Source of the DNA: an uncultured Clostridia bacterium
GTDB taxonomy: Bacteria; Bacillota; Clostridia; Oscillospirales; Acutalibacteraceae
Direction of reading: 5' to 3'
Length of the DNA: 49,288 nt
Assembly: GCA_947166625.1 (NCBI GenBank)
Contig: CAMVEX010000020.1
Location: forward strand, 1-49,288
Part shown: positions 21,085 through 37,943 of the stretch, in pieces
Layout: each line of letters begins with the position of its first letter
Numbering within the stretch: position 1 is the stretch's first letter
The notes under the pieces: model-generated
Told to the model about the DNA's origin: nothing
Database searches by the model: none
The model's input: only the letters and a program-made list of their open reading frames with translations
Translations under genes and position numbers: made by a program

Positions 21085-21238
21085 ATTAAAAAGGCTTTTC
21101 TTTAATCATGTGGCGTGTGGGTCCTGTGCGACAGGGCGCCGTGAACCATGTCAGGCGGGTGAACCGAGCAGCATTAAGCGGTCAGTCTTGTGCGCCACAG
21201 TCTGCCTGCCGCCATATGATTAAGGGAAAGCTTTTAAT
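21085..21238 (+). ncRNA. ffs: Signal recognition particle RNA (small bacterial type)
   Basis: The conserved Ffh-binding helix 8 region is present: GAACCATGTCAGGC on one side and GAACCGAGCAGCATTAAG with the GGTGAA loop segment on the other. The 5' and 3' ends pair over a long stem (TTTAATCATGTGGCG with GCCATATGATTAAGG, extended by AAAGG/CTTTT). About 150 nt with its closing stem, shorter than the Bacillus scRNA with its Alu domain. It scaffolds Ffh for co-translational membrane targeting. Location directly before dnaX is typical of Bacillota. Confidence 0.9.
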
Positions 21239-36695: not shown

Positions 36696-37762
36696 CACCC
36701 GTACCGAGTGCAGGAGGGAAATGTACCGCATCCCGTTTATTCAATTAGCAATTAGCAATGAGTAATTAGCAATTTCGGGTCGCTGTGCTCCGTTTTTATA
36801 TGCACCTTTTACCGATAAATTAAGGTAAGTGTGATTCATCCCGTGGATGGGCGGGTATTTGGAATGTGTATTTTCAAGGATATGCGGAGCATTGGCCCTC
36901 TCCGAGACCGGAGAGGGTGGATTGCGAGCATAGCGAGCAAGACGGGTGTGGCGATGTTTATATACACCCTTTACCGAGTGCAAGAGGGGAATGAGCCGCA
37001 ACTCGTTTATTCGTTAACACCCTTTACCGAGCAGATAAGGGGAATATGATTCATCCCGGTTATTTACTTACACCTTTTACTGATGAGTTATGGGTAATGA
37101 GCCTCATCCCTTAAATGAGCGGTTGGTTGAAACGTGCATTTTCAAGGATATGCGGAGCATTGGCCCTCTCCAAGACCGGAGAGGGTGCCCCGAAGGGGCG
37201 GGTGTGGCGATATAATCGGGGCGAAGCGACTCGAAATTGCTGACTATGTATGCTCTGCATATCCTTGTGGCGGGCGGATGATATCCGCCCCTACGATGTG
37301 AAATACTTGTAAATAATCAAGATTGCACGGTAAAAACACAAATCTCACTATCGGGATGAGGTACATTACCCTTAATTTATCAGTAAAAGGTGTAAGTAAA
37401 TAAACGGGATGAGGCACATCACCCGAACCTGCTCGGTAAAGGGTATATATAAACATCGCCACACCCGTCTCGGCTGCGCCTCGTCACCCTCTCCGGTCTT
37501 GGAGAGGGCTATGAGATGAGATTCATCCACGGGATGAGTTGCATTTGCCTTTCGCAATCAGTATCGGGTAACAATAAAAAAGCGGGCGGATGATATCCGC
37601 CCCTACGTGATTAAATACTTGTAAACATTCAAATTTACACAGTTAAAATTCAGATTTCACTTACGGGATGAATAGTATCTATTTTACTTAATCAGTAAAG
37701 GGAGTAATCGAAAAAACGGGATGAGGCACATCACCTGAACCTGCTCGGTAAAGGGTGTAAAC
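36696..37762. repeat. Intergenic repeat array A9 between convergent transcripts, with orientation switch
   Basis: 36696 to about 37240 is plus-oriented (after the SGNH gene); about 37250-37762 is minus-oriented (after the minus-strand RNA). R4 36741-36797 and a partial 37216-37245. R2 36876-36966 (with a third hairpin form, GCTCGCTATGCTCGC), 37142-37212, and 37448-37510 (minus). R1 37270-37295 and 37582-37607 (minus). R3 between. No gene is supported. Confidence 0.9.
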
Positions 37763-37910
37763 AAAAAGAGCCATCCATTATTATTCTTTTTTAGAATAAT
37801 AATGGATGATAAAAGACGGAGAACGAAATCATTCTCCGTCTTTTATCGGATGGCTCTGTAATTGTTGCTCACAAATTGCAGATGCATAATATTAGCTGGA
37901 TACTATGCAC
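37763..37910 (-). ncRNA. Candidate small structured RNA (about 148 nt)
   Basis: Read on the minus strand from about 37910: an 11-bp hairpin (GTGCATAGTAT / ATATTATGCAT, loop CCAGCTA; 37882-37910); a short AAUU/GU stem around GAGCA; a 16-bp perfect hairpin (arms 37832-37847 and 37808-37823, loop of 8); and a 14-bp perfect hairpin (arms 37794-37807 and 37773-37786). The outer words GAGCCATCC (37848-37856) and GGATGGCTC (37768-37776) pair around both, giving a three-way junction, then TTTTT. ATCC can pair in either of two helices, so branch migration is possible. I recognise no Rfam family. Confidence 0.75.
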
Positions 37911-37914
37911 CTAT

Positions 37915-37943
37915 ATTATATCTATGAGTTTCGGGTTTGTCAA
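37915..37943 (-). promoter_or_regulatory. Perfect consensus promoter of the small RNA
   Basis: TTGACA (37938-37943), 17-bp spacer, TATAAT (37915-37920), all on the minus strand; expected start 37908-37911, at the first base of the 5' hairpin. Upstream, an inverted A/T tract (TTTTTCAAAAAA and mirror, 37948-37983) could be an UP element or operator. This is the only all-consensus promoter I saw in the window. Confidence 0.88.

Follow-up and report, generated by a model that had tools for sequence, protein, structure and literature searches.

What kind of gene begins with a perfect consensus promoter and continues into a dense run of hairpins with no notable reading frame? The question is raised by a locus on the minus strand of a 49,288-nucleotide contig from an uncultured Clostridia bacterium (the whole stretch is referred to here as the window). 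A first-pass annotation, made from the letters alone, had described it as an unrecognised RNA of about 148 nt with a strong promoter and a branch-migrating three-way junction. The basic elements of that description are present. The -35 hexamer TTGACA lies at 37943-37938 and the -10 hexamer TATAAT at 37920-37915, and the window contains the exact promoter pattern, with a spacing of 15-19 nt allowed, a single time; shuffled sequence gave a mean of 0.02, and 2 of 100 shuffles contained one. Folding of 150 nt of the minus strand gave -69.2 kcal/mol (z = -11.5), a value not reached by any of 200 shuffles, and the hairpins were found where they had been placed, as inverted repeats at 37808-37826/37829-37847 (19 nt, 95% identity) and 37772-37787/37793-37808 (16 nt, 100%). 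An outer stem can be drawn on the minus strand between GAGCCATCC at 37856-37848 and GGATGGCTC at 37776-37768, with TTTTT following at 37767-37763. No listed open reading frame of 60 or more amino acids overlaps the element. Its features are as follows.

37915..37943, minus strand: predicted sigma-70/A-type promoter, TTGACA and TATAAT separated by 17 nt, matching the consensus at 12 of 12 positions.
37882..37910, minus strand: P1, a 5' hairpin at or near the transcript start, from folds and alignment A3.
37855..37882, minus strand: P2, a bulged hairpin with a GAGCA loop, from alignment A2, pair counts and minimum free energy (MFE) folds.
37848..37854, minus strand: the linker GCCATCC, of which CCAUCC is invariant in all 29 aligned rows of A2.
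37808..37847, minus strand: P3, a predicted intrinsic-terminator hairpin, GATAAAAGACGGAGAA...TTCTCCGTCTTTTATC, from covariation and sequence.
37772..37808, minus strand: P4, an AU-rich 3' hairpin of the window, where it is seen as an inverted repeat, and of its nearest relatives, from their folds.
37768..37776, minus strand: the 3' strand of the outer stem, able to pair with 37848-37856 and followed by the run of five T at 37763-37767.

A search with the sequence itself already gave clear relatives within the genus. Homologues were then sought with a covariance model of the RNA core (R1), an approach suggested in the first-pass annotation. Exactly one strong match (61–103 bits) was found in each of 33 of the 45 genomes of the genus; the next-best match, at 49 bits, was the opposite strand of the same place. 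The remaining 12 genomes had no strong match, and one of them (G012) holds only a piece of the RNA at a contig end. An exact search with the core pattern returned 20 stretches from named records, all of them metagenome-assembled genomes labelled Clostridia, Ruminococcaceae or Oscillospiraceae, with isolate names mostly from ruminant, deer or horse gut samples. A mobile or phage origin was considered and rejected, given the single strong copy per genome and the lack of any sequence in a viral collection that matches the core pattern exactly at its 24 fixed bases.

Beyond the genus, searches were made of samples of 398 genomes of the family, 394 of the order and 391 of the class, all including the window genome (G000) and the family sample including at least six further members of the genus; the filters applied here were stricter, at the cost of missing weak matches. 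Nothing outside the genus was found in the family sample at an E-value of 1e-6. In the order sample 174 of the 394 genomes had some match at an E-value of 0.1, the best one outside the genus scored 37.4 bits, and none was a convincing homologue: among 29 of these loci that were checked, none had a convincing P2 and linker, and three gave hits only at the limit of four substitutions, which look like chance. The class sample gave one match, at 38.7 bits, which on reading was a bare terminator. An unrelated terminator at L197 1521-1560, in a genome from another family of the class (G966), has a stem, AAAAGGCGGAGAAC...GTTCTCCGCCTTTT, with nearly the letters of P3, and stems of this kind account for the weak match there. 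Among the genomes sampled, the RNA family appears confined to one genus of gut Clostridia. Since most close relatives keep the RNA and the sampled distant ones are without it, it looks like an undescribed regulatory RNA.

Comparison of the homologues defines what is conserved. A promoter of the form TTGACN-16/17-TATA(A/C)T was found by pattern search immediately upstream of the RNA in all 32 homologues examined (a set that leaves out G028, whose RNA is identical to that of G009, and G012), in keeping with the strong promoter of an RNA gene that had been proposed. Transcription would start near position 37908. From there the conserved RNA is about 100 nt long and, as judged from the alignments, ends at P3, the first terminator hairpin, which is likely to be the main 3' end; the 3' arm of P3 runs into a series of U residues in G024, G025 and G032. 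The length of 148 nt finds no support as a feature of the family, as the conserved unit stops at P3.

The stems were assessed in two alignments. In alignment A1, MAFFT had misaligned the variable P1, so that RNAalifold recovered neither P1 nor most of P2, and the structures of A2 and A3 were therefore assigned by hand. A2 has 29 rows (25 distinct), with G007, G060, G061, G012 and some duplicates left out and one row (L018) hand-trimmed by 8 nt; A3 has 15 rows selected for an alignable P1, without the window clade, and two of them (L047 and L048) are misaligned in P1. Changes on both sides of a pair were seen at 12 of 27 pairs in A2 and at 11 of 33 in A3, numbers not reached in any of 500 shuffles of either alignment, with slid registers giving at most five and at most one, respectively. 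Four of five whole-structure measures of A3 exceeded the shuffles; the fifth, further pair types, did not (346 of 500 as high). The stems differ in their share of this signal. In P3, 9 of 17 pairs changed on both sides and 99.5% of cells were paired (A2), and in P1, which varies in letters and length among homologues, 5 of 6 pairs did so in A3. P2, with 91% of its cells paired in A2, had fewer double changes, at three of its 10 pairs there and one of 10 in A3. Covarying pairs, which the first-pass annotation had suggested looking for, are thus present in the homologues, in P1 and P3 and more weakly in P2.

P1 formed in 30 of the 32 homologues when the 5' region was folded alone, the exceptions being G024 and G025, and in 29 of 32 folds of the whole unit, from which G060 also lacked it. 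The P2 loop and the linker are far more conserved than P1, and CCAUCC is unpaired in MFE folds of the conserved unit, being partly paired in G032 and G060 only. In its letters P2 resembles a lac operator, and a role as a DNA operator is conceivable.

We next consider the genes around the RNA. In 24 of the 32 genomes the RNA is preceded, on its own strand, by a gene for a WG-repeat/SH3 protein, and in 23 the promoter is no more than 70 nt from this gene. The gene is not beside the RNA upstream in G000, G003, G020, G023 and G067, lies downstream and convergent in G009 and G026, and cannot be placed in G014, where the contig ends too soon. A match to the protein was found somewhere in 43 of the 45 genomes of the genus. 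In the window genome the best such match is at 844-1938 on the minus strand of the same contig, 36 kb from the RNA, which here has a histidine kinase and a response regulator as its upstream neighbours. In several genomes that lack the RNA, another gene comes directly after the WG-repeat gene. Just downstream of the RNA in the window, positions 36700-37773 are densely packed with imperfect repeats, direct and inverted, in a mosaic of which 681 bases gave 215 matches within the same genome. Across the genomes examined, the RNA is retained with different neighbouring genes.

This bears on whether the element is a cis-acting leader, in which P2 and the linker would sense something and P3, as an attenuator, would set read-through into a metallophosphoesterase and/or DUF218 gene. 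In 11 of the 32 genomes (G002, G008, G011, G017, G019, G021, G023, G027, G036, G061 and G062) P3 is followed by such a gene on its own strand, and a leader role is possible there; in nine of these the similarity begins no more than 30 nt beyond P3, too close for another promoter to fit between. However, the other 21 genomes have no such gene within the 471–1500 nt examined downstream and still keep the promoter, linker and P3. The sole antiterminator drawn, UCCG with CGGA, was rejected as a conserved feature; G017, G024, G025 and G027 are among the genomes in which it is disrupted. The persistence of the RNA despite its changing neighbours makes a stand-alone small RNA likelier than a leader, and we consider the leader unlikely. 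The same region could instead be a short reading frame (MSEPSDKRRRT...), as an AUG stands in frame just before the linker and the 5' arm of P3 in 18 of the 32 genomes. But 14 do not have it: the window clade has AUU, G014 reads AUG-UAG, and in G004, G010 and G060 an AUG is in another frame; moreover, indels in loops shift the frame, and changes in P3 are compensated in the opposite arm. A coding role is exceedingly improbable. In G002 (L039) and G017 (L035) the MSEPSDKRRRT frame, with its AUG in P2, is open through the linker and P3 into the downstream DUF218/metallophosphoesterase gene, and in G011, G019 and G021 the listed downstream gene begins after P3.

The sequence 3' of P3 is the part of the first-pass description that gave the three-way junction. 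It had proposed that an RNA of about 148 nt acts as a switch by exchanging the outer stem for the longer inner terminator stem. The two pairings are mutually exclusive and in the window both are populated, with an outer-stem pair probability of 1.0 in the middle of the stem and 0.31 at its inner end. The T5 run directly after the outer stem, and two compensated pairs by which the P4 of G000 differs from that of G026, also speak for it. Among nine close-clade genomes that were folded, the best fold has P3 and a 3' hairpin enclosed by an outer stem in only four (G000 and, more weakly, G009, G028 and G026, which have a hairpin equivalent to P4), and nine perfect outer pairs followed by T5 were seen in G000 alone. 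In G064 and G020 linker bases were paired with other downstream letters, and in G003, G067 and G034 with none. In G000 the linker pairs with the 60 nt that follow P3 at a probability of 0.72, against a shuffle mean of 0.13 and with 1 of 60 shuffles as high, although a single value of this kind among 32 genomes is only weak evidence, even for the window. For the 31 remaining genomes the masking was not above that in shuffled sequence: between 15 and 60 of 60 shuffles were as high, with 51 for G009 and 16 for G026, and masking of the linker by downstream sequence was rejected as a general feature. The terminator P3, furthermore, precedes the 3' strand of the outer stem. In G003 (L008) the letters of the linker recur on the same strand, as CAGCCATCCG, about 75 nt after the first copy and ahead of another terminator-like hairpin.

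According to these folds, the three-way junction is a local feature of the window genome, not of the RNA family. What stands of the first-pass interpretation is an unclassified RNA gene with its own promoter and covarying stems, and the two exclusive pairings within the window; not supported for the family are the 148-nt length and the branch-migrating three-way junction, and the enclosing stem is above chance in the window genome alone. Confinement of the masking to the window lowers our estimate both of the switch, which we would give only a slight chance, and of a related reading that we hold to be very unlikely. In the latter, the window lineage would have acquired a mask of its own, read-through of P3 yielding a long form in which the complement GGAUGGCUC hides the linker in a three-way junction. 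If that were true, one promoter would give a short, active RNA or a long, inactive one, depending on the efficiency of the terminator.

Comparison with known RNA classes bears out the statement that the element matches none that could be named. At both gathering and permissive thresholds, no Rfam family reached its gathering score within it, and there was no Rfam match to 6S, tmRNA, SRP or T-box RNAs. The best sub-threshold matches were the Plastid-psbM 3' UTR on the RNA strand (32.1 bits against a gathering score of 52.7) and, on the opposite strand, the SpF39 sRNA (27.8 against 60) and the sxy leader (24.2 against 70), each of which resembles the element in hairpin shape only. The 6S model (RF00013) gave no match at the element which, like 6S RNA, would be a stand-alone structured RNA but lacks the long hairpin with a central bubble; a canonical 6S RNA is present separately in 7 of 13 genomes of the genus, the window genome included (G000:C7, 56.9 bits). 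The window also carries a bacterial small SRP RNA at 21115-21214 on the plus strand (53.1 bits), and ARAGORN found no tmRNA in it. In 11 of the 32 genomes the element, like riboswitch and attenuator leaders, has a terminator hairpin a short way ahead of a gene; it differs from riboswitch and T-box leaders in that the downstream gene is not conserved, no Rfam riboswitch matches and no conserved antiterminator was found. The listings and abstract openings of the open-access literature held no description of this RNA, and a string search gave one paper, which was unrelated.

The element may also be compared with the intrinsically terminated, trans-acting small RNAs of Gram-positive bacteria. RNAs such as RsaE/RoxS have a sigma-A promoter, stem-loops, an exposed C-containing stretch and a terminator, and are not known to need Hfq. 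The element resembles them in its own sigma-A-type promoter, its stem-loops, its exposed C-containing stretch and its terminal terminator hairpin; it differs in having CCAUCC as its linker, in being found in one genus only and in matching no Rfam family at threshold. Three of the traits by which trans-acting small RNAs are recognised, namely a near-consensus promoter of their own, a predicted 3' terminator and varied neighbours, are found here. Across the genomes, sequence comparison gives a promoter, three hairpins, an invariant linker and one strong copy per genome, retained across most of the genus while the neighbours change. We conclude that the element is probably a stand-alone small RNA of about 100 nt, found in one genus of gut Clostridia, and that it would act in trans and independently of Hfq, making contacts through its linker and P2 loop, most likely as an antisense RNA.

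In the mechanism that we propose, RNA polymerase would start at the consensus promoter, transcribe P1, which probably stabilises the 5' end, then P2 and the linker, and stop at P3. The RNA would then act in trans, with the exposed CCAUCC, perhaps together with the GAGCA loop of P2, contacting a target RNA or protein; antisense pairing to an mRNA would be the likeliest mode. In the window genome, transcripts passing P3 could fold into a three-way junction and so conceal the linker. A search of 13 genomes of the genus found no Hfq (the same search was positive in four other genomes of the order and in 5 of 14 control genomes), so pairing would be independent of Hfq. A scan of six genomes for exact 10-nt complements of AGAGCCATCC gave no translation-start site common to the genomes; the matches were scattered and mostly within open frames, and the one clearly common to G000 and G024 was inside a coding frame. 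This argues against long perfect pairing, not against a seed of 6–8 nt. A 12-nt complement of the linker region was rejected as a target, 26 of its 32 places being the RNA itself by position and the other six scattered. The conservation of the P2 loop and linker, so far above that of P1, would also suit a protein-binding decoy or scaffold whose site is the bulged P2 with its GAGCA loop and the linker. We regard this as improbable, as no candidate protein is known and G007 has a rearranged P2 yet retains P1, the linker and P3.

The trans-acting RNA that we favour is a new small-RNA family of an ordinary kind: one more orphan family, and not a new kind of system. If it is transcribed as predicted, it would be an undescribed and perhaps abundant small RNA; the genus of gut Clostridia that carries it is represented here by metagenome-assembled genomes, and no Hfq was found in the 13 genus genomes searched. 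With its invariant linker, the RNA lends itself readily to target searches and binding tests.
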